This document shows positions 11,488 through 44,038 of a stretch of DNA of 64,000 bases, one piece after another. The notes below the pieces were generated by a model. That model saw nothing but the letters and a program-made list of their open reading frames with translations. It did not search any database and had not been told where the DNA came from. The stretch's first letter is position 1, and each line of letters opens with the position of its first letter. Made by a program: the position numbers and the translations under genes. Source of the DNA: Corynebacterium uberis (GTDB lineage Bacteria; Actinomycetota; Actinomycetes; Mycobacteriales; Mycobacteriaceae); assembly GCF_020616335.1 (NCBI RefSeq), contig NZ_CP085051.1, positions 2,356,001 through 2,420,000 of the forward strand, read 5' to 3'.

Positions 11488-12514
11488 GCTGGCCCGGCGC
11501 ACCCGCCGCATCCTGGCAAACCCCTGGGTGCGTCTGGGCCTGTCCGTCGTCGTGCTCGCCATCGCCGGCGTCCTGCTTGGCCGCAACGGAGAACTGCTCA
11601 CCCAAGGCTGGCACCACCTAAGCACCGCCGACCCCCGCTGGCTCGCCGCGGCGGTCGTGTTCATGGCGGCCACCATGATCAGCCAGGCCGAAGTCATGGT
11701 CGTGCTGCTACGCGGGGCTGATGTGCCCGTCCGGCGCAGCGCCGCCAACATCCTGGGCCTGGCCGCCAACGCCTGGTCCGCCAGCCTGCCCGGCGGGCCA
11801 GCCGTCTCCGCGGCCATGATCTTCCGCGAGCAACGCCGCTGGGGCGCCACCCAGGTGGTTGCCGGCTGGTACATGCTGCTATCCGGCGTATTGGCCGCCT
11901 CGGGCATGGCCATCCTGGGGCTCCTCGGCGTGTTCTTCCTGGGCGCCCACATCAGCCTGCCCACCCTGGTGGCCTCCCTGCTCGGGCTCGGCGCCGCCAT
12001 CGGGGCCATCAACTGGGCCGCCCACCACCCCGGGCACGTCCTGCGGCTCGCGCAGCGAGTGCTCGCGCGGGTAAATAAGCTGCGCCACCTACCCGCCCAC
12101 CACGGCGCACACCGACTACGCGAGCGTGCCGAGGAACTAGCAACCGTGCGACTCTCCCCGGCGCGCCTCGCAACTGCCATGGCCTGGTCCCTGGCCAAAT
12201 GGGTCGCAGAAATCGGATGCCTCTGGGCGTGCGCGATCAGCATCGGCGCCCAGCCCACGCTAGCCGGAATCACCCTGGCCTTCCTGGCCGCCAAACTCGT
12301 GGGGCAGGCACAGATCACCCCTGGGGGGCTCGGACCCGTCGACGTCGCGCTGACCAGCGCGCTCGTCCCGTTCGCCGCCATCTCCGCCGCGCACGCGGTA
12401 GCCGCCGCGATCATCTTTAGGCTCATCAGCTTCGTGGGGCTGACCATTGTGGGATGGCTGGTGTTCTGCTGGTTCTGGACGATCCGTGGAACGGGGAGCA
12501 CGGGGCGTCGATAA
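11480..12514 (+). CDS. UPF0104/LPG synthase-like flippase-domain membrane protein
   Basis: 344 residues with about eight membrane segments. SLPGGPAVSAAMIFREQRRWGAT (about residue 97), and the late GQAQITPGGLGPVDVALTSALVPF block, are the two family signatures of lysylphosphatidylglycerol synthase-like transmembrane (YbhN/UPF0104) proteins, which act as lipid flippase domains. No catalytic synthase domain follows. It overlaps cmpL1 by 8 nt, so the two are co-translated; lipid handling alongside mycolate export is plausible. Its stop TAA (12512-12514) lies inside a copy of the dispersed GGCGTCGATAAGC motif. The substrate is unknown. Confidence 0.8.
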   Translation: MNKLARRTRRILANPWVRLGLSVVVLAIAGVLLGRNGELLTQGWHHLSTADPRWLAAAVVFMAATMISQAEVMVVLLRGADVPVRRSAANILGLAANAWSASLPGGPAVSAAMIFREQRRWGATQVVAGWYMLLSGVLAASGMAILGLLGVFFLGAHISLPTLVASLLGLGAAIGAINWAAHHPGHVLRLAQRVLARVNKLRHLPAHHGAHRLRERAEELATVRLSPARLATAMAWSLAKWVAEIGCLWACAISIGAQPTLAGITLAFLAAKLVGQAQITPGGLGPVDVALTSALVPFAAISAAHAVAAAIIFRLISFVGLTIVGWLVFCWFWTIRGTGSTGRR

Positions 12515-12516
12515 GC
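12502..12516. repeat. Dispersed motif copy GGGGCGTCGATAAGC at a gene end
   Basis: One of 13 copies of the 11-mer GCTTATCGACG or its complement in this window. Here it spans the end of the flippase-like gene and its TAA is that gene's stop codon. Confidence 0.75.
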
Positions 12517-12543
12517 ACGAAGACGTGTGCAAGGATGAGGGCT

Positions 12544-12909
12544 ATGAATACTCGTCACCTTCGTGCCCTCGTGGGCGATACCACCGCCATCGCCGCCTTC
12601 GCCCTGTTTGCGCGCATCGCGCACCGCGGCCCGGACATGCCGCTGACCTTCGGCGGCTGGGTATCCACCGTGTGGCCCTTCCTCCTAGGCATCGCGCTGA
12701 CGTGGGGATTTGTCAGCTGGAAGGGGTGGGACGCGTGGCGGATCCGGCCCGCCGGGCTGACCATCTGGATCGGCACCGTCATCACCGGGCTGATCATCTG
12801 GGGCATCAAGCACTCCGCGATGCCGCACTGGTCCTTCATGATCGTGGCGTCGAGCACCTCCGCGCTGCTGCTGCTCGGGTGGCGGGCGCTGGCGCGCAAA
12901 CGGGGGTAG
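12544..12909 (+). CDS. Small membrane protein, DUF3054-like
   Basis: 121 residues with four predicted membrane helices, starting MNTRHLRALVGDTTAIAAFA and containing FARIAHRG, then TLPF-like WPFLLGIALTWGF, and RIRPAGLTIWIGTVITGLI. The D-T pair in helix 1, the R-x-x-H in the first loop and the G-W-x-x-W in the middle fit DUF3054. ATG 12544 follows AGGATGAGG at a good distance, so it is preferred over longer frames. It is 29 nt downstream of the flippase-like gene and likely in the same transcription unit. Function unknown. Confidence 0.72.
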   Translation: MNTRHLRALVGDTTAIAAFALFARIAHRGPDMPLTFGGWVSTVWPFLLGIALTWGFVSWKGWDAWRIRPAGLTIWIGTVITGLIIWGIKHSAMPHWSFMIVASSTSALLLLGWRALARKRG

Positions 12910-13018
12910 GGGGCAGTCGGGGATGTGATAAGTCACCCCCACATTGGGGTAATTAGTTTCTCCTACAAGCAAAGGCAACCCTCCCCTGACCTGCCATTGT
13001 TATCATTTGTTTATCGTT

Positions 13019-13047
13019 TTGACCGGAAAATAAGTGCCATTTTATCT
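13019..13047 (+). promoter_or_regulatory. Promoter of the secreted-protein/ABC cassette
   Basis: TTGACC (13019-13024), a 17-nt spacer, then TTATCT (13042-13047), close to the sigma-A consensus. The transcript would start near 13054. AAGGAG lies at 13081-13086, before ATG 13093. Confidence 0.6.
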
Positions 13048-13092
13048 ACACGGCCGTAGCATGTCTCCCAAGCGCTACGAAAGGAGACAAAC

Positions 13093-13570
13093 ATGAAGCG
13101 CTTCGCCCCCCCCCTTGGCGGCCCTGACCATCCTGCTGGCGACTGCACCTGCTATTGCAGACGATTTCGATCCCTGGCACTACGAGGACATCGCAGAAGC
13201 TAAGGGCAGCTGGTCTATCGATCAGAGTCAAGGCACCCAATTCAGCATCACCGGTTCTGTGCGAGACCTAAAGCCTGGTGACGACCCCGTCTACTGGCTT
13301 GCCATAACACAAGCATCCTCGGGAGTTTGCCTCAATATCAATCCCCAAGGTTTCAGCACCTCGTGCAGCCAAGACTTCTTCACCTTCAATGAAGTGCGCG
13401 GGGAGGACTTCAACTCTCCCGATTGGAGTGAATACTCCACGCTCTCACCAGTGAGTCCCACAGCCCGTAGCCATAGGGTCATCATGAGGGTTTGCGAAAA
13501 CCGAAGGTTTGAGCCGGATGGCTGTTCAGAACCCGCATTTGGACATGAGGTGTGGAATGTTGGTCAGTAA
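13093..13570 (+). CDS. Small secreted Cys-rich protein, out of frame at a C9 tract
   Basis: ATG 13093, with AAGGAG 7 nt upstream, begins MKRFAPP but then meets nine consecutive C (13106-13114) and stops at TGA 13126-13128. With eight C it would read MKRFAPPLAALTILLATAPA and continue in frame to TAA 13570, giving a signal peptide and a mature protein of about 135 residues. The mature protein has four cysteines: VCLN and TSCSQ mid-protein, and RVCENRRFEPDGCSEP near the end. The C-terminal motif CExxRFxPDxC is shared with the next protein, so the two are paralogues. A TTG start at 13115 would have no nearby ribosome binding site and a signal peptide lacking its charged start. The region is AT-richer than its surroundings. 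Function unknown; a substrate, toxin or receptor for the following ABC genes is an inference. Confidence 0.62.
13106..13114. repeat. Homopolymeric C9 tract in a signal peptide
   Basis: Nine C in a row, 13 nt after the ATG of a secreted-protein gene. The current length is out of frame and eight C would restore it. This is the classic position for slipped-strand phase variation, but a sequencing error of one base would look the same. Confidence 0.8.
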
Positions 13571-13940
13571 AAAGAAATGTATATCTTCAGTGGCAGTCTC
13601 CCTCGCCCTGATCGGTTTGGGAATGCCAGTGGCGCACGCACAGACAGTGGAGACGGAGTTTGGCGTCGCCGAGATATTTGGCGTCTCTCATCCTAGCCCG
13701 TCCACCTCTGTACAGACAGGGCAGATTCGGAAGCACCACGCAGGTGGGGATTTAATCTACATCCGTGTCTCGCACAGTTTCATCACCGCTCCCCTCCCGA
13801 ACACCGTGTTCACTGAGAGCATCCGCTGGAATGACTCTACATTCCGGCCCTACGAAGTCTCGCTCAACAGCGGGATCATCTCCAACACGCAGTTTTGCGA
13901 GGACCACCGCTTCAGTCCCGACAATTGTGTGACAGTGTAG
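13557..13940 (+). CDS. Small secreted paralogue of the preceding protein
   Basis: 127 residues from ATG 13557, which overlaps the end of the preceding gene by 14 nt and has GAGG upstream. MLVSKKKCISSVAVSLALIG is a signal peptide ending at AHA. The mature part has VETEFGVAEIFGV, then a long beta-like stretch and the end FCEDHRFSPDNC, matching RVCENRRFEPDGCS of the upstream protein. The mid-region (IYIRVSHSF) also aligns with YWLAITQAS of the paralogue. There are only two mature cysteines, against four in the first. It stops 9 nt before the ABC ATPase gene, so export and transporter genes appear co-transcribed. Not recognised as any known family. Confidence 0.65.
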   Translation: MLVSKKKCISSVAVSLALIGLGMPVAHAQTVETEFGVAEIFGVSHPSPSTSVQTGQIRKHHAGGDLIYIRVSHSFITAPLPNTVFTESIRWNDSTFRPYEVSLNSGIISNTQFCEDHRFSPDNCVTV

Positions 13941-13949
13941 GTACCCACC

Positions 13950-14714
13950 ATGATCATCCACAAAGTACTCCGGGGGTTTTCCCTAGGCCCCATTGAAATG
14001 CCATTAATAGGCGATGGTCGCTTGGTAGTCCTCGGCGACAACGGCGCGGGCAAGACAACACTCCTGCGCGCGCTGGTGGATGAGCTAGAAGCAGGTAAAC
14101 GATCTGCGGTGGCCTACCTGCCCCAAGAACAACGCCTGCCCGCGCTCAGCCGCGTACGCGACCTGCTGGCCTACGCTGCCGTTGAGGCCGGTGTTCCGCG
14201 TGCGGAGGTCTCGGCGCGGGTGGAGGCGGCGGCGCAGGCCGTGGGGTTTGCAGAGATGCTGGGGCGGCGGGTGCGCGCCCTGTCCGGCGGGCAGCGCCAA
14301 CTGGTGGCCATTGCCGCCACGCTGGTGGGGGTTGGGGAGGCTGAGGGCGCTGCGGATGGTGCCGTGCCGACGATCGTGCTCGACGAGCCCACCAACAACC
14401 TCGACGTCGAGCACGTTGCCCACGTGACCAGGCTGATCGCCGATCCACCTGGGCAGCTGGCCGCCGCGCGCTGGGTGATCTGCACGCACGACCACGACCT
14501 CGCCGAAGCGGTAGCCAGCCACGTCCTTGTGCTGCGCGGCGGGCAGCTCGCCTTTGCGGGCACTCGCCAGGAGTTCCTGGACACCGCCCCCGCGGGGACC
14601 GCACAGTGGGCGGAGGCGTACCTGCAGGCGCTGACCTCGGGCCCAGGCCCGGGCGCTGGGAATGGCTCCGGGGAGGCTCCGACGACCGAGACTAGTGAAG
14701 GAGAACGCTCATGA
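13950..14714 (+). CDS. ABC transporter ATP-binding protein (cassette 1)
   Basis: 254 residues. Walker A is GDNGAGKTT (about residues 31-39), the Q-loop is at YLPQEQ, the signature is ALSGGQRQLVAIAATL, Walker B is TIVLDEPTNNLD, and the H-loop is CTHDHDLAE. It is a single soluble nucleotide-binding domain powering two downstream membrane proteins. An unusual insertion of about ten residues (GEAEGAADG) sits between the signature helix and Walker B. The C terminus is a low-complexity G/P tail. The stop overlaps the next start by 4 nt (ATGA), so translation is coupled. The closest partner here is the cassette-2 ATPase at 40456-41160. Confidence 0.88.
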   Translation: MIIHKVLRGFSLGPIEMPLIGDGRLVVLGDNGAGKTTLLRALVDELEAGKRSAVAYLPQEQRLPALSRVRDLLAYAAVEAGVPRAEVSARVEAAAQAVGFAEMLGRRVRALSGGQRQLVAIAATLVGVGEAEGAADGAVPTIVLDEPTNNLDVEHVAHVTRLIADPPGQLAAARWVICTHDHDLAEAVASHVLVLRGGQLAFAGTRQEFLDTAPAGTAQWAEAYLQALTSGPGPGAGNGSGEAPTTETSEGERS

Positions 14715-15922
14715 ACGCCCGCATCAAGCTGTTCGCCACCTCATTTGTGTCCCCCTACGTGGCGCTCATCGCCTCGCTGTTGTGCATGGGCATCATGGTG
14801 GTCGGCGGGGACCAGCGCTGGAAAGACGACTTCTACTGGACCACCGAGTGGATCGAAGGCAGCCTCTTCCCCGCCCTGCTGGCCACCCTGTGCGCGCTGG
14901 GTTTCGACTGCTGGCGCCACTTCAACCCCGCCCGGCCGTCCTACTTTGACAGCCGCACCGGTCGGCGCCGCGGCTTCCTGGGCGCGCTGATTGCCTGCAA
15001 CTGGCTGGCACTCATCCTGCCCGCCGTGGTGCTCTTCCTCCAGAGCTACCACTCGTGGCGCTTCGGGCCACCCAGCCGCCACTGGTCCGCGGCCGGGCAC
15101 TTCACCGTATGCATGATTGCGCTGCTCGCGCTGCTGCTCGCGTGCGCGGTCCTGGCGGTGCGGCTGCCCAAGTTCGGGGCGCTGGTGGGACCCCTGGTCA
15201 CCGGCGTTGCGGCCTTCGCTGCCCTGTCCGGACACGGCATCTTCCTGCTGGGCTCGACCACCGGCCCCATGCTGGACGTGGACGCGCGGGCTCGGGTGCT
15301 GTGGGCGCTCGGGGCGTGCGCGGTGGTCGCCGCGATCTGCGGTGCGCTGCTGTTGCGTGCGGGAGGTACGGGGGCGTCGGCAAGCGGGATGGGTGCCTGG
15401 GTGCTGCTTGGTGTGCTGCTCGCGCAACTGCTCGTGCACGTTAATGAGTACGAATTTACTACTAGCGGGACTGGGGCCTGCCAGGATGTGGGTGGATCTC
15501 GAAGGGTGTGCATTTCCGCCGAGCACCAGCGCTTCTTCACCCCCGTGGTTGCTCGTTATGAGGAGCTGGTGGACGCCGCGGAAGCGACCGGGAATCCGCA
15601 GCTCATGGACGCTTTACCACGCATGTATGCCGAGACTATCGGCCATAACAAAGCATGGCGCTTCACCCCCGGCCTGGGCCCCGAGGACCAAAGCAGCTAC
15701 CGCATTTCCCGCGGGCTCGCGGACGCCACGCCCAGCTTCAGCCGCGAAGAATTCATCGCCTCGCTGGCCACCAACTCGCACTGCGACACCCCCAACCGCG
15801 CCGCCGCCCAGGAATCCACGGAGCTTCTCACATCGCTTCTCGACGCCCCCACCTCCCTCAGCCCCGAGCGCACCGCACGGCTCGCAGAACTCCTGCCCGC
15901 CATCCGGGCCTGCCATGCCTAG
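14711..15922 (+). CDS. ABC-cassette membrane protein with Cys ectodomain
   Basis: 403 residues. About seven membrane helices (roughly residues 8-245) are followed by an extracytoplasmic C-terminal domain of about 155 residues. That domain has four cysteines: CQDVGGSRRVC at its start, SHCDTPN, and AIRACHA at the very end. Four cysteines in the same relative places occur in the cassette-2 protein at 41153-42307 (CDADIHMC, RLCGLP, AHCPAQS), although overall identity is low. I do not recognise a Pfam family; ABC-2 type permease is an inference from the ATPase next to it. A dispersed-motif variant (15370-15385) lies in the coding region. The pattern suggests disulfide-bonded external domains that contact a secreted partner. 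Confidence 0.75.
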   Translation: MNARIKLFATSFVSPYVALIASLLCMGIMVVGGDQRWKDDFYWTTEWIEGSLFPALLATLCALGFDCWRHFNPARPSYFDSRTGRRRGFLGALIACNWLALILPAVVLFLQSYHSWRFGPPSRHWSAAGHFTVCMIALLALLLACAVLAVRLPKFGALVGPLVTGVAAFAALSGHGIFLLGSTTGPMLDVDARARVLWALGACAVVAAICGALLLRAGGTGASASGMGAWVLLGVLLAQLLVHVNEYEFTTSGTGACQDVGGSRRVCISAEHQRFFTPVVARYEELVDAAEATGNPQLMDALPRMYAETIGHNKAWRFTPGLGPEDQSSYRISRGLADATPSFSREEFIASLATNSHCDTPNRAAAQESTELLTSLLDAPTSLSPERTARLAELLPAIRACHA

Positions 15923-16529
15923 AGTCCACTGGTTTCCCGCCTGGCTGCGCGCCGGAGCCGGCGGGATGGCCAGCTATCTCATAGCCCTGGGCTGCTTTGT
16001 TGCCGTCCTCTGGGGTGCAGGCGCATTGCTGGGGGTGTTGCCCCGCGAGGTGGTCTACCTCGCCGGAAGCTTCGCCGGGCTCTACACCGCGCTGATCACC
16101 CCGCCGCAGGACGGGACGTTTCGGGGGCGCGGGGCAGGCCGAACTTTGGTGCTAGTTCCCACCACCCGCTGGGGCAGGCTCGCCGCCTGGAACGCCTGGC
16201 ACGCGGTGGTACTGGGGGCGATCGCTACCCCCGTCATCGCCGCCAGCGGCGTCGGCCCCGTAGTTGCCCCCGTGCTCTTTGTGTTCGGATTCCTGACCGT
16301 CGTGGCCACCGCGCGCTGGGGCGACGGGTTCCCCGGATTCATCGCCGGCGTGTTTGCCATCATCGTCGGCGGATTCACCGCGTGGGAACCCTACTCGGCG
16401 TGGACCTTCGGGTGGCTCTACGCGGGGCAGATTGGTGTGGCGCACGGTGTGGCGGTGGTAGTTCTGGTGGGGCTGGGCGTGCTCGCTGCGGGGCGGGCGT
16501 GGCGAGGGTGCGGAAGGGGGCGTCGATAA
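15915..16529 (+). CDS. Second membrane subunit of ABC cassette 1
   Basis: 204 residues from ATG 15915, overlapping the previous stop by 8 nt. About six membrane helices and a basic N terminus (MPRVHWFPAWLRAG). The loop after helix 2 has TRWGRLAAWNAWH, a short amphipathic segment as expected for a coupling helix facing an ABC ATPase. No soluble domain. The likely role is a permease subunit of the same exporter. The stop TAA (16527-16529) falls inside a copy of the dispersed motif (16516-16531). It is convergent with the small gene at 16541-16903 with an 11-nt gap. Confidence 0.72.
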   Translation: MPRVHWFPAWLRAGAGGMASYLIALGCFVAVLWGAGALLGVLPREVVYLAGSFAGLYTALITPPQDGTFRGRGAGRTLVLVPTTRWGRLAAWNAWHAVVLGAIATPVIAASGVGPVVAPVLFVFGFLTVVATARWGDGFPGFIAGVFAIIVGGFTAWEPYSAWTFGWLYAGQIGVAHGVAVVVLVGLGVLAAGRAWRGCGRGRR

Positions 16530-16540: not shown

Positions 16541-16903
16541 CTAAGCCTCCGGGCCCTCGGGGGTGGCGTAGACGGGCTTGCCCAGGGCAGCAACCTCCGC
16601 ATAGCCGGCAGCCTTCAGGGCGTCAACGATGCGGTGGAAATAGTCCTGATCAGCGTCTTCGTCGAAGGAGTCCAGGAGCGAGATGACGGGGAACTCGCCG
16701 TCGTAGCGCACCGAAACCAGCGGGTGGCCGGCCTCCGCCTCAATGGCGGCGATGGCCTCTTCCGCGCGCTGCTGCTGGATCTGGCCGTGACTGTTGTCCA
16801 CCACCGCGGGGCTGGGCGCGGCGGCCTCCTGAGCGAGGGCGGGCGTGGCCGACGCGGCGATCCCCGCGAGAGCTACAGCACACACGATTGGCTTGAGCGT
16901 CAT
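16541..16903 (-). CDS. Small exported protein, unknown function
   Basis: 120 residues. MTLKPIVCAVALAGIAASA is a signal peptide ending at ALA. The mature part is acidic and helical, with AEEAIAAIEAEAGHPLVSV, an EFPVISLLDSFDEDADQDY segment and a C terminus GYAEVAALGKPVYATPEGPEA. ATG 16903 has AGGAG 7 nt upstream; the nearby ATG at 16909 is too close to the AGGAG. A longer upstream frame is not supported. It is divergent from the HNH gene. No family is recognised. Confidence 0.7.
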   Translation of the reverse strand: MTLKPIVCAVALAGIAASATPALAQEAAAPSPAVVDNSHGQIQQQRAEEAIAAIEAEAGHPLVSVRYDGEFPVISLLDSFDEDADQDYFHRIVDALKAAGYAEVAALGKPVYATPEGPEA

Positions 16904-17050
16904 AAGCATTCTCCTAAGGTTCGGGTTTGAGTGGACATTTACGTGTTTGAGTTTACGTGGCGGGGTGGTTCTGCGGGGGCCGGGGTGCGGTTTTTGGAGG
17001 GGTTCGAACGGCTGTTCGTACGGTTTCGGGGCTGGGTCACGGCGGTGTTT

Positions 17051-17056
17051 TATAAT
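17051..17056 (+). promoter_or_regulatory. TATAAT -10 element upstream of the HNH gene
   Basis: A perfect TATAAT. It would start transcription near 17063, consistent with the GTG start at 17121 and against a start at ATG 17057. No good -35 is seen. Confidence 0.5.
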
Positions 17057-17120
17057 GTCAGCAACAACCGCGGAAACATACAATACCGCAGCTCACGGGG
17101 ATATTTTAGGGGGTGAAACA

Positions 17121-18548
17121 GTGACCGCACCAGCGGACATCGCCGGGCTCATCGGCACCGTCGCACAAGCCATGCACACGCTGTGTGACCTCATCACAGA
17201 CGCGCCCGACGCCGCCCTCTTCCACGCCAACCGCGACGCCTTCTTAGAACTCGAACGCGCCTGGAACCTCAAAGCCAGCCTCGACCCCGCCATCGCGCAC
17301 GCCGCCGACAAAGCCGAAGCCGGACGACTCGTCGGCTCCAGCCGCACCGTCGACTACCTCACCCGCACCTACGGACTCTCCTTCACCGAAGCCCAATCCC
17401 GGCTGCGCAGCGCCGCGCACCGCTACGGGCCGGCGCCTGTGCCTGCGCCTGCGTCTGTGCCCGCGTCTGTGCCGTCGCGGGAGGCCGAGCCGGAGCCGGA
17501 GCCCCTGCCCGAAGTACAACAGCGCCGCGAGCGTGCCCGCCGCAGCCGACTGAGCAAGGAAAAGCTCGCGATTATCGACGCCGAACTCGCCCGCCTCTCC
17601 ACACACGTCGCCACCGAACGCGACCGCCTACGCAGCGCCGCCATCGATGAAGCCTGCCACCGAAACCCCGAAGACCTCCAAGAATGGGTCCGCGCCCGCG
17701 TCCGCCACTGCAACAGGCGCGTCATCGACCCCCTCGAACCCATGCGCAAACGCACCTTCTGGATCGGCAAAACCGACCACCTCGGCGGCGCCACCTTCGG
17801 CGGCTACGCGCCGCCCGCCCTCCTAGCACTCCTCGATTCCACACTCGCCCCCGCTCGCAACAAGGGCGCCTTCGGGCCAGACCTCGACGGCACCACCCCC
17901 GCACCCGGGCTCGACGACCGCCGCACCGTCGCCCAACGCCGCCTCGACGGCCTCTGGCACATCCTGCGCAACCACGGCACCGACTCCGCGACCCGCGCCG
18001 GCGGTGCAGCAAGCCTGGTCATCAGCGTCGACGCCGCCGAACTCACCGAAGCCGACGCCCGCACCCACCTACCCCACTGGCCCACCAACACCCACGCCCA
18101 ACTCACCCCCATCGACCTCCTCATGGTTGGCCTTGCGCGTTACGACGTCGGCGTCCTCCACGACCACGACACCGGCACCGTCCTCCACGCCGGCCGCAGC
18201 CGCCGCACCGCCAGCCTGCTCCAACGCCTGGCACTCTTCGCCGAACAACTCGTCTGCTCCCACCCCGGATGCACCCAACCCGCCTGCCAAACCGACGTCC
18301 ACCACATCGTCCCCTGGCTCAAACAAGGCCGCACCGACATAGAAAACCTCACCCTCCTATGCAGACGCCACCACACCGACAACAATGACAACCACGACGG
18401 CGCCCACAACATGGGCCACGCCGAACGCGACCCCCACACCGGCCGCGCCGGCCACCGCATACGCACGCGTACACGTACCCAAGCTCCGGAATCGGTGGGA
18501 TCCCCGGAGCCCGGCCCATCCCCGCCGCGCAGCACCGACTCCTCCTGA
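17121..18548 (+). CDS. DUF222 / HNH endonuclease-type protein
   Basis: 475 residues from GTG 17121 (AGGGGGTG about 6 nt upstream). The N-terminal DUF222 region is helical (AFLELERAWNLKASLDPAIA, AGRLVGSSRTVDYLTRTYGL). A Pro/Glu linker near residues 106-135 (PVPAPASVPASVP, then EPEPEP) joins it to a second helical block. The C-terminal HNH nuclease is CSHPGCTQPACQTDVHHIV, then ENLTLLCRRHHTDNN, with both zinc-binding CxxC-like pairs and the HH catalytic site. Such proteins occur in many copies in actinobacteria; their role is unclear and some sit in mobile DNA. The lack of any toxin or intein feature argues for a stand-alone gene. Confidence 0.82.
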   Translation: MTAPADIAGLIGTVAQAMHTLCDLITDAPDAALFHANRDAFLELERAWNLKASLDPAIAHAADKAEAGRLVGSSRTVDYLTRTYGLSFTEAQSRLRSAAHRYGPAPVPAPASVPASVPSREAEPEPEPLPEVQQRRERARRSRLSKEKLAIIDAELARLSTHVATERDRLRSAAIDEACHRNPEDLQEWVRARVRHCNRRVIDPLEPMRKRTFWIGKTDHLGGATFGGYAPPALLALLDSTLAPARNKGAFGPDLDGTTPAPGLDDRRTVAQRRLDGLWHILRNHGTDSATRAGGAASLVISVDAAELTEADARTHLPHWPTNTHAQLTPIDLLMVGLARYDVGVLHDHDTGTVLHAGRSRRTASLLQRLALFAEQLVCSHPGCTQPACQTDVHHIVPWLKQGRTDIENLTLLCRRHHTDNNDNHDGAHNMGHAERDPHTGRAGHRIRTRTRTQAPESVGSPEPGPSPPRSTDSS

Positions 18549-18848: not shown

Positions 18849-20393
18849 CTACAGCGGCGCGATCGTGTGCTTCTTCGGCAGATCCCGCTCATCCTTATCC
18901 GCCAGCTGCCGCAGCGCGCGCCGCAGCGCCAACCGAGTCTCATGGGGCTGAATCATCGCGTCAATGAACCCACGTTCCGCAGCAACATAAGGAGACGTCA
19001 TGTTCTGGTCATAGAAGTCCATGAACATCTTCTTCATCATGTCGCGCTGCTCTGGGGGGGCCGCCGCCAGCTGCTTGCCCTGGATCATCACCACCGCTGC
19101 GGCCGATCCCATCACCGCGATCTGGGCCGTCGGCCACGCCAGGTTGATGTCCCCGGTCAGGTTCTTCGAGCCCATCACCGCGTACGCCCCGCCGTAGGCC
19201 TTGCGCACAATGAGCGAAACCTTGGGCACGGTGGCCTCCACCACGGCGAACGCCAGCTTGGCGCCCCGGTGGATCAGGCCCTCTCGTTCCTGCGCCACGC
19301 CGGGCAGGTAGCCGGGGGTGTCCACCACGAACACGATGGGGATGTTGTAGGCGTCGCATATGCGGATGAACCGCGCGCCCTTATCCGCGGCATCCGCATC
19401 AATGCAGCCCGCGTAGTGCATGGGTTGGTTGGCCACGAATCCCACGGTGCGCCCGTCGATGCGTCCGAAAGCGCAGATGAGGTTGGGGGCGAAGTTGGCC
19501 TGAATCTCGGTGAGTTCATCGTCATCGCCCAGCTGCGCCAGCAGGTCGAGCATGTCGTAGCCGGCGTTAGTGTCGTCCGGCATGAACGCGTCCAGGTCGG
19601 TCGCCTGGGCAACCTCCTCGTCTGCGGGGGCGGGCTGCACCGGCGCCGGGTCGAAGCACGTCGACGGCAGGTATTCCAGCAGGTCGTGCACCAGGTCGAA
19701 GGCTTCATCCTCGGAGCTGACCACCACCGAAATGTTGCCGGCCGCCTCCTGTTGGCGGGCCCCGCCCAGTTCCGCGGAGCTGATGTCCTCGCCGGTGACC
19801 TCCTTGATCACCGCCGGGCCCGTGACGTACATCTCTGTTTCCCCGTCCACGGCGATGACAAAGTCCGTGGTCACGGGCGCGTAGACGGCGCCGCCGGCGG
19901 ACTTGCCCAGCATGATGGAGATCTGCGGGCAGCGCCCGGACAGGGGCAGCTGGCGGCGGGCGATCTCCGAGTACATGGCCAGCGAGGTCACCGCGTCCTG
20001 GATGCGCGCACCGCCAGAGTCCTGGATGCCGATGACCGGGCAGCCAATCTTGATGGCCATGTCCATCACTTCCACGACCTTGCGCCCGAACGTCACGCCC
20101 ACGGAGCCGCCGTAGACGGTCTTGTCGTGGGCGTAGACCACGACGGGCCGGCCATCGACACGCCCGTAGCCGGTGACCACGCCGTCGGAGTAGATGGCGT
20201 CCGGGTCTCCCGGCGTTTTGCCCAGCGCCCCAATCTCCATGAAGGAACCCTCATCCAGCAGCGCCTCGATGCGCTGGCGGGGGGTGGTGCGGCCGGCCTC
20301 GTCGCGCTTCTTGCGGGAGCGTTCGCTGCCCGGGTCCTGCGCCGTGGCCAGGCGTGCTTGCAGGTCGGCAAGTTTTTCAGCCGTCGTGCTCAT
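18849..20393 (-). CDS. accD3: Acyl-CoA carboxylase beta subunit of mycolate synthesis
   Basis: A 514-residue biotin-dependent carboxyltransferase subunit. As the counterpart of mycobacterial AccD4, it should carboxylate the long acyl-CoA that Pks13 condenses. Both carboxyltransferase halves are present: GVVTGYGRVDGRPVVVYAHD and IQDSGGARIQDAV in the first, FIRICDAYNIPIVFVVDTPG and KAYGGAYAVMGSKNL in the second. The start ATG is 20393, 6 nt from the pks13 stop. It is the last gene of the fadD32-pks13-accD3 operon, matching Mycobacterium and Corynebacterium. No oddity in length. Confidence 0.95.
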   Translation of the reverse strand: MSTTAEKLADLQARLATAQDPGSERSRKKRDEAGRTTPRQRIEALLDEGSFMEIGALGKTPGDPDAIYSDGVVTGYGRVDGRPVVVYAHDKTVYGGSVGVTFGRKVVEVMDMAIKIGCPVIGIQDSGGARIQDAVTSLAMYSEIARRQLPLSGRCPQISIMLGKSAGGAVYAPVTTDFVIAVDGETEMYVTGPAVIKEVTGEDISSAELGGARQQEAAGNISVVVSSEDEAFDLVHDLLEYLPSTCFDPAPVQPAPADEEVAQATDLDAFMPDDTNAGYDMLDLLAQLGDDDELTEIQANFAPNLICAFGRIDGRTVGFVANQPMHYAGCIDADAADKGARFIRICDAYNIPIVFVVDTPGYLPGVAQEREGLIHRGAKLAFAVVEATVPKVSLIVRKAYGGAYAVMGSKNLTGDINLAWPTAQIAVMGSAAAVVMIQGKQLAAAPPEQRDMMKKMFMDFYDQNMTSPYVAAERGFIDAMIQPHETRLALRRALRQLADKDERDLPKKHTIAPL

Positions 20394-40114: not shown

Positions 40115-40393
40115 GGCTGGTCCTTTCTGGTTGCGAGGCCAGGCGCGCACCCCGTCCCCAGCTGGGGAGTTAACCCGGGGCGCGCCTGTTGTTAACTTTG
40201 CGTTCACCTTAGCGCAGGCCGTACACCCATGTCAATCGTCGGCGTGTCTAATGATTGGTCGCAGCCAACCGTTCCCTCCCCCGGGGTGGACTGCAGGGCC
40301 GCCTGTGATCAATGCCTCAGGGCTAATCTCTGGCGCACCCCCCTACCGCCCCCTAAGCTCTTCCTGTACATTTTTGCCCTCGATTGGAGAACC

Positions 40394-40455
40394 ATGGCCG
40401 CCACGGCACCGCGCCCGCCACGCCGAACACACCCCACCACGGGCGGGAACCACCA

Positions 40456-40459
<4 letters not shown>
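40394..40459 (+). CDS. 21-codon leader ORF coupled to the ABC ATPase
   Basis: ATG 40394, preceded by GGAG, encodes MAATAPRPPRRTHPTTGGNH plus Gln and ends in TGA 40457-40459. That TGA overlaps the ATPase GTG start (GTGA). The ATPase itself has only a weak ribosome binding site, so translation of this leader may load it. It is too short to assign a function; it could be chance. Confidence 0.4.
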
Positions 40460-41152
<693 letters not shown>

Positions 41153-41160
<8 letters not shown>

Positions 41161-42288
41161 ACCCTTCGGGTGGCACCACTGGCTGCGCCGGCCCACCACC
41201 TGGATCATTCTTGTCGGGCTAGTGATCTCTCAGCTCATGACCGACGGGGGATCCTTTCATTATTATTCCCACCTGGATGTCTCCGAAGCCATGCTCACGC
41301 TTGCCGCCGCGGCCCCTGCCGCCTGCATGGCTGCGGCGTGGGAGGCCGGAAGCTTGCGCGCCTTCCTGGAGCGAGGGACCAACCACCGCACCATCCTGCG
41401 CGCCCTTACCCGCAGGCTGTGGGCTCTGCCGTTACTACCGCTTGTCTGTTTTGTCGCGTGCGTGCTCACGCGCGGTGTGGCCAGCTCCTTGACCAGCAGC
41501 GCCACCCCAGGGCTTGTGGCCATCTGCCTGGCACACGGAATAGCCTGGACGATTCTGGGCGCAGGCTTGGGCTTGTGGTTGCGTGGATTGTTCGCCCTAC
41601 CGCTCGCGCTTCTTATCCCCTACCTGCTCATTGTCGTTCCACCGGCGCTACCCACCACTACCTGGCGGCACCTGACCGGAATTCCGGTGTTTTGCTGTAC
41701 CAACGACTCGGTGCTGGCTCCTGCAATGGTTGGTGGCTCACTGCTGGCAGTAACCAGCGTTGGGCTCGTGGGCGCCGCGATCGTCGCGTTGCGCACGGCC
41801 ACACCGATCACCCTTGGTATGGCCGGGGCACTGGCGTGCATGGCCATCGCCGGCATCATCGCAGCCGTTCCCCTCACCGCAGGTCTGGACTTTAGCTCGA
41901 CCAGCCCCCGCGACAGCGCGGATCTCACCTGCGATGCAGATATCCACATGTGCCACTGGCCTGACTCCACGCCCGAGTTCATCTCCAGCAACTTGCAGGC
42001 CCGCGAGGTGTACCAGAGGCTTAGCCCAGCCGCACAGCCACGCACAGAGATTTCAGAAAGGCCCAGCCGCCCTGATCAACTGCGGGCGACCTACGGCAAC
42101 AATGAGGCGCAACGGGTGTGGGAGTTTCTCCTCCAGGACCTCGCACGCGATCCCGCGCTAAGTGATGCTCGCCTGTGCGGCCTCCCGCTGGCAGACCAAG
42201 CGGGGCTGGGTTATCTTCCCGTCCTCATCCCGCCGCTGCCCGCCGCCCGGCTTACTGCCCCAGACGCGTTAGCCCTCATGGAGGCCCA

Positions 42289-42307
<19 letters not shown>
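41153..42307 (+). CDS. ABC-cassette membrane protein with Cys ectodomain (paralogue)
   Basis: 384 residues. About seven membrane helices (roughly residues 15-245), then an extracytoplasmic domain of about 135 residues with cysteines at CDADIHMC, RLCGLP and EAHCPAQS near the C terminus. The same four-cysteine arrangement occurs in the cassette-1 protein at 14711-15922 and the helix pattern is alike, so I read them as distant paralogues, although there is little direct identity. Helix 2 is preceded by EAGSLRAFLERGTNHRTIL, a possible coupling helix. No named family is recognised. It is followed by a second membrane gene. Confidence 0.75.

Positions 42308-44038
<1,731 letters not shown>

Follow-up and report, generated by a model that had tools for sequence, protein, structure and literature searches.

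The question raised by the locus described here is why two genes encoding small secreted proteins stand directly in front of the genes of an ATP-binding cassette (ABC) transporter in Corynebacterium uberis, and what these genes might do together. The locus is part of a 64,000-nucleotide stretch (referred to as the window; contig NZ_CP085051.1, positions 2,356,001 to 2,420,000) of a 2.53 Mb single-contig genome (G000). It consists of five same-strand genes, sec1, sec2, ATPase, permease 1 and permease 2, which are located between a DUF3054 gene and a gene that we take to be accD3, as the initial annotation of the window had done (Table 1). Sequence comparisons support the view that the secreted proteins belong together with the ABC system as a unit, because the same architecture is found in other actinobacteria and in Corynebacterium loci with a secreted gene directly upstream. 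We propose that the cassette on balance probably encodes one or more antibacterial proteins secreted by the Sec route together with an ABC transporter for self-immunity, in a manner resembling lactococcin 972 in its logic.

Organization of the cassette

The initial annotation had described two small exported proteins with a common end motif, tightly packed with an ABC ATPase and two membrane proteins, one of which holds four cysteines in an external domain. This description agrees with our data, as five open reading frames (ORFs) are present at the claimed place, the motif reads CENRRFEPDGC in sec1 and CEDHRFSPDNC in sec2, and the external cysteines are C257, C267, C358 and C401 of permease 1, which follow six predicted transmembrane (TM) segments. 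The sec1 and sec2 genes overlap by 14 nt, a gap of 9 nt separates sec2 from the ATPase gene, and overlaps of 4 nt and 8 nt join the ATPase gene to permease 1 and permease 1 to permease 2. The AT-rich start of the region is also there (Table 1). The promoter proposed for it was not recovered, since a scan of the + strand for sigma-70-type promoters gave none upstream of position 13093; the single match within the cassette, at 13929-13957, overlaps the ATPase start. No RNA families were found between 12500 and 17500. The suggestion that other corynebacteria run straight on to accD3 at this place was true of 10 out of 24 loci, drawn from 37 other genomes that had a match to DUF3054, and untrue of the other 14, as judged from 1.5 kb beside the DUF3054 gene.

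Relationship to four-cysteine ABC systems of other actinobacteria

A profile of four-Cys permeases found a further locus in the same genome, and it also reached another actinobacterial family, in which the outer domain corresponds to Pfam DUF7224 (E 1.6e-19). DUF7224 (PF23866) is a domain of unknown function, and the four-Cys pump type has no name; the term DUF7224 was not found in the papers of the literature searched. The domain model scored above cut-off in 10 of 246 genomes of the class and at E ≤ 0.01 in 24 of them, and it had no match at E ≤ 0.01 in the C. uberis genome. The spacing of the four cysteines was similar in 22 of 23 ectodomains, including that of permease 1 (P0005), while the one of locus L084 (L and G denote loci and genomes) has three cysteines in the stretch read; the P0012 and P0013 ectodomains contain two additional cysteines upstream of the domain as cut by hand. 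In its corrected cut, the outer domain of P0005 scored 26.1 against a wider profile, made of DUF7224-type and Corynebacterium permeases with P0005 left out, and the scores of 100 free shuffles and 100 Cys-fixed shuffles did not exceed 23.7 and 21.5, respectively. Full-length P0005 scored 60.9 against the permease profile (probability 94.5, 40 columns aligned), as compared with control proteins rather than shuffles: nine of ten control membrane proteins reached at most 23.9, and the tenth, with 121.8, was a real second system at 41153-42307.

These data suggest that permease 1 is a remote relative of the DUF7224 permeases, not a member of the family, because P0005 fails to reach the Pfam model of this domain. 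The similarities include the four similarly spaced cysteines, the C-terminal position of the outer domain, and a polytopic permease, as well as the ATPase and small second permease encoded alongside and, in part of the loci, an upstream gene or gene pair for secreted proteins; the difference is that P0005 stays below the Pfam model, with a profile similarity that is only remote. Structure prediction gave seven helices for permease 1 at low confidence (mean pLDDT 53.8), too poor to read a fold. In a protein collection, permease 1 and permease 2 each found the query alone, in a word-based search that misses remote relatives, and neither P0005 nor P0004 (permease 2) matched any NCBIfam family at E ≤ 1. 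Permease 2 had a sub-threshold match to Pfam DUF7333 (E 0.14). The TIGR01654 model, presumably that of bacteriocin-associated integral membrane immunity proteins, matched neither P0005 nor P0004 (E ≤ 1), nor 15 members of our set A9 (E ≤ 0.01).

The ATPase (P0003) matched ABC_tran (PF00005) with 53.8 bits at a cut-off of 25. When 242 genomes of the genus were searched with P0003, with at most 11 candidates scored per genome, three others matched at E ≤ 1e-20, and each of these loci holds an ATPase gene and a small secreted Cys protein or its remnant; the G229 and C. oculi loci also encode two permeases, one of them of the 413-residue type and holding four cysteines in its C-terminal domain. 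P0003 was also compared by BLASTP with 24 ABC ORFs of such loci and with 32 ORFs from 30 of the 91 PF00005 matches of its own genome. The 17 best rows were all ABC genes from four-Cys/DUF7224-type loci (two rows are one gene, and L077 12400-13080 was counted without a neighbor check), and the best ordinary ATPase of the genome, with 54.7 bits, was placed below them. Some ATPases of the systems ranked under this ordinary one (L065, L072, L077 7074-7835 and L084). In PADLOC, many ATPase models matched P0003 (best mad3, E 2.9e-22), which we read as cross-matches among ABC ATPases, and there was no match for the other six proteins.

The gene order is not confined to this strain. Outside the genus, locus L062 (G407) contains two tandem secreted paralogues, an ATPase, a DUF7224 permease and a second permease in the same order as the window. 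A single secreted gene of the family designated a is present in each of L066, L073 and L084. Fourteen DUF7224-type loci were read, ten above the cut-off (L037, L062-L070) and four below it (L071-L074), and a secreted gene stands beside the ABC genes in four of them (L062, L066, L073 and L071, the last with start and body in different frames). The loci of C. oculi, C. sp. zg-331 and congeners likewise combine a small secreted Cys protein with an ATPase, a four-Cys permease and a second permease, but their secreted proteins belong to other families (c, d and a), and in the family-c loci of C. oculi and C. sp. zg-331 the order is secreted gene, permease 1, ATPase, permease 2.

The secreted proteins

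Both sec1 (P0001) and sec2 (P0002) lacked matches in Pfam-A (hmmscan, E ≤ 10) and NCBIfam (E ≤ 1). Hence, the statement of the initial annotation that no described family could be recognized holds for the secreted proteins, and it does not hold for permease 1 with its remote DUF7224 kinship. The BLASTP similarity of sec1 and sec2 was confined to the stretch of the end motif (11 residues, E 4e-4). Their mature parts, as compared by hhalign, scored 25.7, which exceeds the maximum of 18.7 in 100 shuffles, and for this reason the two proteins are probably paralogues. The secreted partners encoded elsewhere fall into several families whose mutual relation is not clear, while the pump type is conserved. 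Likenesses noticed by eye (xRFxPD, ESxRWxD, and the similar end of the G305 protein) had suggested kinship of sec1 and sec2 to families a, c and d or to the G305 protein, but this was not significant. Against family a, one family-c protein outscored each of 60 shuffles, although the probability was only 7.4%, and these two families may be remotely linked. The secreted family-c protein of C. oculi (L076 5641-5958) weakly matched Pfam HIPIP (E 5.9e-4, 20.5 bits, cut-off 22), which is probably due to its cysteines.

The signal peptides of sec2 and of the intact relatives are of the ordinary Sec type. The sec2 structure model was of low confidence (mean pLDDT 44.9), with strands only in the second half, and was too poor to read a fold; among solved structures nothing below E 0.09 was found for A4, A9 or sec2.

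Intact and broken secreted genes beside the ABC genes

To the 15-row permease profile, 39 of 241 genomes of the genus responded at E ≤ 1e-4, C. uberis included, with 54 listed places, of which 24 were not fetched; the 30 best-match loci, one per genome (L171-L200), were read. Calls were made with a home-made signal-peptide rule, a hidden Markov model built on 13 members of family a, and inspection by eye. The secreted gene was in one frame in 11 of the 30 loci (L171, L176, L178-L181, L190-L192, L194 and L195) and broken in eight (L172-L174, L182, L185, L187, L193 and L197, with L187 also cut by a contig end). The permease 1 frame was open in all 30 of these best matches, and the four-Cys pattern was present in all but L177, as parsed by hand. 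Five loci with a broken secreted gene were viewed in full (L202-L206), and in each of them the ATPase, permease 1 and permease 2 genes were open and had their full size. Where the ABC frames stay open next to a broken secreted gene, an immunity pump is a better explanation than an exporter, or an importer that depends on a partner. The initial annotation had named substrate, partner and immunity target as the possible roles of the secreted proteins toward the transporter; the single unit implied by all three is consistent with the data, and among the three roles the last is favored.

A break is also apparent in the window itself, which the first reading had overlooked. The ATG at 13093, located behind AAAGGAG, is not in frame with the signal peptide and body of sec1, from which it is separated by a run of nine cytidines at 13106-13114, the only single-base run of at least eight in the window. 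Across the genome, 12 distinct runs of at least nine C or G were counted (from 30 overlapping matches). An in-frame TTG at 13115 would give only a 15-residue signal that lacks a basic end. Hence, either sec1 is off in the assembly or the assembly contains an error; sec1 appears to be off in the present assembly, with sec2 intact. A sequencing error in the nine-C run, with sec1 expressed normally, is possible, though rather unlikely. It would concern sec1 only and is compatible with any other explanation of the cassette; long C runs are error-prone, and the strain comparison was limited, with one genome of the species in the search. On the other hand, the frames of signal and body also disagree in another seven such secreted genes, and a random error would be unlikely to concentrate in the signal region.

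The frames of signal and body were checked in 28 entries, which represent 27 distinct genes, as L075 is the same as L172. The frames differ in eight (sec1 of the window, L036, L071, L075 of C. sp. zg-331, L174, L197, L185 and L008) and agree in 18, while the start of L193 is unreadable. Two genes of the first group, those of G202 (L008) and C. sp. zg-331 (L075), had been considered intact, which was given up as their start and body frames differ; a weaker in-frame start is possible in L075. By eye, each of the eight breaks lies at or close to a run of at least four like bases, and such runs were also listed in eight of the 18 agreeing ones. A frame break in the mature part was clear in one case (L007), L197 also has an early second stop, and deletions were found in L006 and L182. 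The clustering of breaks in the signal region gave a binomial probability of 1.6e-4 (8 of 10), or 1.1e-3 when the deletions were counted (8 of 12), on the approximate assumption that this region makes up 22% of the gene. Since this share is approximate and the ascertainment uneven, bodies being found more easily than starts, the clustering is a lead rather than a proof. Short runs occur naturally in signal-peptide codons, so that slippage could arise there with or without selection for switching. In family c, homopolymer runs of differing length occupy the same place, as compared between species with one genome each. Such tracts in Propionibacterium acnes were judged to build up slowly and not to undergo active modification (PMC4746626).

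Further C or G runs closely follow an ATG at L096 and L101, and another lies near the start of a secreted enzyme that looks GDSL-like by eye (L093); the three runs are further candidates for slippage.

Proposed function and alternative explanations

The nearest described logic is that of the lactococcin 972 cluster (lcn972, orf2 and orf3 on plasmid pBL1), whose ABC transporter is a putative immunity determinant (PMC4055356). A small protein with a Sec-type signal is encoded upstream of ABC genes in both cases; sec2 is in one frame, while in sec1 the signal-type frame is present and the start codon lies in another frame. Unlike that cluster, the cassette encodes two separate permeases, one of them with a four-Cys C-terminal outer domain, and permease 1 has no NCBIfam counterpart. 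No match of sec1 or sec2 to PF09683, which we take to be the lactococcin 972 family model, was obtained in the Pfam-A (E ≤ 10) and NCBIfam (E ≤ 1) searches. We infer toxicity, immunity, recognition by the ectodomain and the direction of transport. The sec1 and sec2 proteins, presumably bacteriocin-like and disulfide-containing, would be exported through Sec, adopt their fold outside the cell and act on the envelopes of related bacteria. Permease 1 would recognize the secreted protein on the external side of the membrane through its four-Cys outer domain, and this protein, or its membrane-bound complex, would be driven off the target at the expense of ATP. As the secreted gene would be costly and the pump protective, the former would repeatedly be switched off or lost and the latter kept.

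A pump that outlasts the secreted gene fits immunity, and parallels exist among bacteriocins, for which orphan immunity genes are described (PMC10598978). A shared ABC transporter of the enterococcal Mr10EFGH type is reported to give bacteriocin immunity and also occurs as an orphan (PMC10598978); those bacteriocins are leaderless or circular, and the likeness noted here is one of logic. In P. acnes clade II, the gene with the lactococcin 972 domain alone was deleted and the remainder of the island was kept, although that paper reads the transport genes of the island as possibly iron-specific (PMC4746626).

The operon-like series of overlapping genes could also be expected if the ABC system were a dedicated exporter, which would fold or release secreted proteins that serve outside the cell, for example in adhesion or envelope assembly, and the Cys-rich outer domain of the transporter could act on such cargo. 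This explanation is improbable, because the ordinary Sec signal peptides of sec2 and the intact relatives make an exporter unnecessary, and because the ABC genes are intact beside broken secreted genes, as well as in loci in which no secreted gene was seen. Sensing ABC systems of the BceAB kind typically have a permease with a large outer domain, and the secreted proteins are as diverse as signals can be, which would agree with a secreted ligand or signal for which the ABC system is the sensor, in peptide sensing or an envelope-stress response, with no toxin involved. We give little credence to this possibility either, since no kinase, regulator or sigma factor was noticed among the ORFs between 9000 and 20500 (by eye, with no profile search), and loci without a ligand gene would be hard to explain. 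It also seems quite unlikely that the ABC set serves in resistance to other compounds or in stress, as ordinary pumps do, and that the secreted genes acquired beside it are chance passengers. The GC content of the window genes, 54% in both secreted genes and 67-70% in the ABC genes, and the loci of the genus without a visible secreted gene (11 of 30) speak for passengers, while a directly upstream secreted gene in many loci of distant genomes, from several families of unclear relation, speaks against them.

Several observations weigh against a self-immunity cassette. The secreted gene was not seen in the 11 genus loci L175, L177, L183, L184, L186, L188, L189, L196 and L198-L200, where the sequence 5' of the first ABC gene is absent from the data for L183 and L186, and a short remnant was noticed by eye in L188. 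It was also not recognized in the other ten of the 14 DUF7224-type loci, of which L069 and L070 are at a contig end. An ABC set without a secreted gene may have another job. The choice of best matches favors open permease frames, and the counts are not independent, because several loci are near-identical (L190, L191, L192 and L194 form one close group, L196 and L198-L200 another). Decay also affects the ABC genes: permease 1 of C. oculi (G166, L007) runs in two frames and has a broken family-d secreted gene at its side; at the family-d locus of G202 (L008), the ATPase is truncated beside a transposase-like ORF, at a contig end, with no permease in view; and a four-Cys set of C. uberis at 1054610-1055785 has an internal stop and an ATPase fragment only. 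Hence, retention of the pump with loss of the secreted gene is a tendency among the loci seen, not a rule. As for the sequence relationships, P0005 matched no Pfam family at E ≤ 10, DUF7224 included, and with a longer cut it scored 24.2 against a DUF7224-only profile, where 40 Cys-fixed shuffles reached up to 24.8. What permease 2 shares with the other second permeases is limited to its place, its size and its membrane segments, and its homology to them found no support in hhalign (16.6, controls up to 19.3). The sec1 and sec2 proteins had no hmmsearch match to family a at E ≤ 10, and their hhalign scores were equaled by 6 and 2 of 60 shuffles.

If self-immunity is nevertheless the function of the ABC system, a transporter type related to DUF7224 permeases, with profile matches in 39 of 241 Corynebacterium genomes and with members in other actinobacteria, would gain a role, protein antibiotics of corynebacteria and soil actinobacteria could be sought upstream of the pump, and there would be a handle on why bacteria retain immunity after dropping the weapon. 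As the frame breaks are concentrated in signal peptides, secretion switched by slippage would become testable. One could go further and envisage an undescribed actinobacterial class of diverse secreted antibacterials, each paired with a four-Cys ABC immunity system, in which secretion is switched by slippage at signal-peptide homopolymers under constant immunity, so that producers alternate with protected non-producers; this is a speculative and unlikely extension.

Further ABC sets, neighboring genes and a repeated 13-mer

The C. uberis genome contains four ABC sets of this kind. The second is encoded in the window (40384-42894), where no secreted gene was seen beside it, and its permease 1 gave the score of 121.8 against the hhalign profile of the other permeases. 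It is flanked by genes that we take to be glfT2 and glf. The third set (L036) is located beside a broken four-Cys secreted gene of family c and adjoins a gene that is presumably prfC; the fourth is the decayed set described above. The site next to the presumed prfC gene carries four-Cys ABC cassettes with differing secreted families in several corynebacteria (L006, L007, L008 and L036), and by appearance it is an integration hot spot. A low GC content at third codon positions (GC3) was noticed in the family-a cassettes (L176-L195 and L202-L206), with values of 0.47-0.67 for the secreted genes and of 0.37-0.50 for the ABC genes of L202-L206; judged on the GC3 of the cassettes alone, they look horizontally acquired.

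Table 1. Positions in the window of the cassette, its neighbors, the second ABC set and the repeated 13-mer
Feature	Position	Strand	Remarks
AT-rich upstream region	12910..13092	+	48% GC over 183 bases; AAAGGAG, ribosome-binding-like, 13080-13086
ATG and n-region codons of sec1, then nine-C run	13093..13114	+	
sec1 body frame (P0001)	13115..13570	+	remaining signal peptide and mature protein; end CENRRFEPDGCSEPAFGHEVWNVGQ
sec2 (P0002, 127 aa)	13557..13940	+	signal peptide and body in a single frame; mature end CEDHRFSPDNCVTV
ABC ATPase (P0003, 254 aa)	13950..14714	+	nearest to ATPases of four-Cys/DUF7224-type loci
Permease 1 (P0005, 403 aa)	14711..15922	+	six TM predicted, C-terminal outer domain
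Four-Cys outer domain of permease 1	15455..15919	+	residues 249-403
Permease 2 (P0004, 204 aa)	15915..16529	+	five TM segments predicted
DUF3054 gene	12454-12909		left neighbor of cassette
Opposite-strand gene	16541-17083	-	between cassette and HNH-type gene; no Pfam family
Presumed HNH-type gene	16845-18548		before accD3; type recognized by eye
Presumed accD3	18849-20393		right neighbor; identity as in the initial annotation
Second set, ATPase	40456..41160	+	GTG start assumed; longest frame from 40384
Second set, permease 1 (384 aa)	41153..42307	+	C260, C267, C342, C380 in outer domain
Second set, permease 2	42289..42894	+	four TM predicted; start codon uncertain
13-mer GGCGTCGATAAGC	676, 8404, 12504, 16519, 21384, 25062, 34068, 43012, 44097, 52914		

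The opposite-strand gene that follows the cassette has a signal-type start, as judged by eye. A 15-bp direct repeat at 12502 and 16517 flanks the region and was considered as an insertion scar, which was rejected because the repeat includes the 13-mer GGCGTCGATAAGC, found 296 times in the genome. The 13-mer occurs 10 times in the window, where 0.00 occurrences are expected, and its genomic copies are distributed over the strands as 138 and 158, with none for the reversed control. It is also present in G229 (196), C. oculi (G166, 165), G004 (51) and G036 (48, control 2), and is sparse in G202 (15) and G033 (1). Such a density and strand balance resemble those of DNA uptake sequences.

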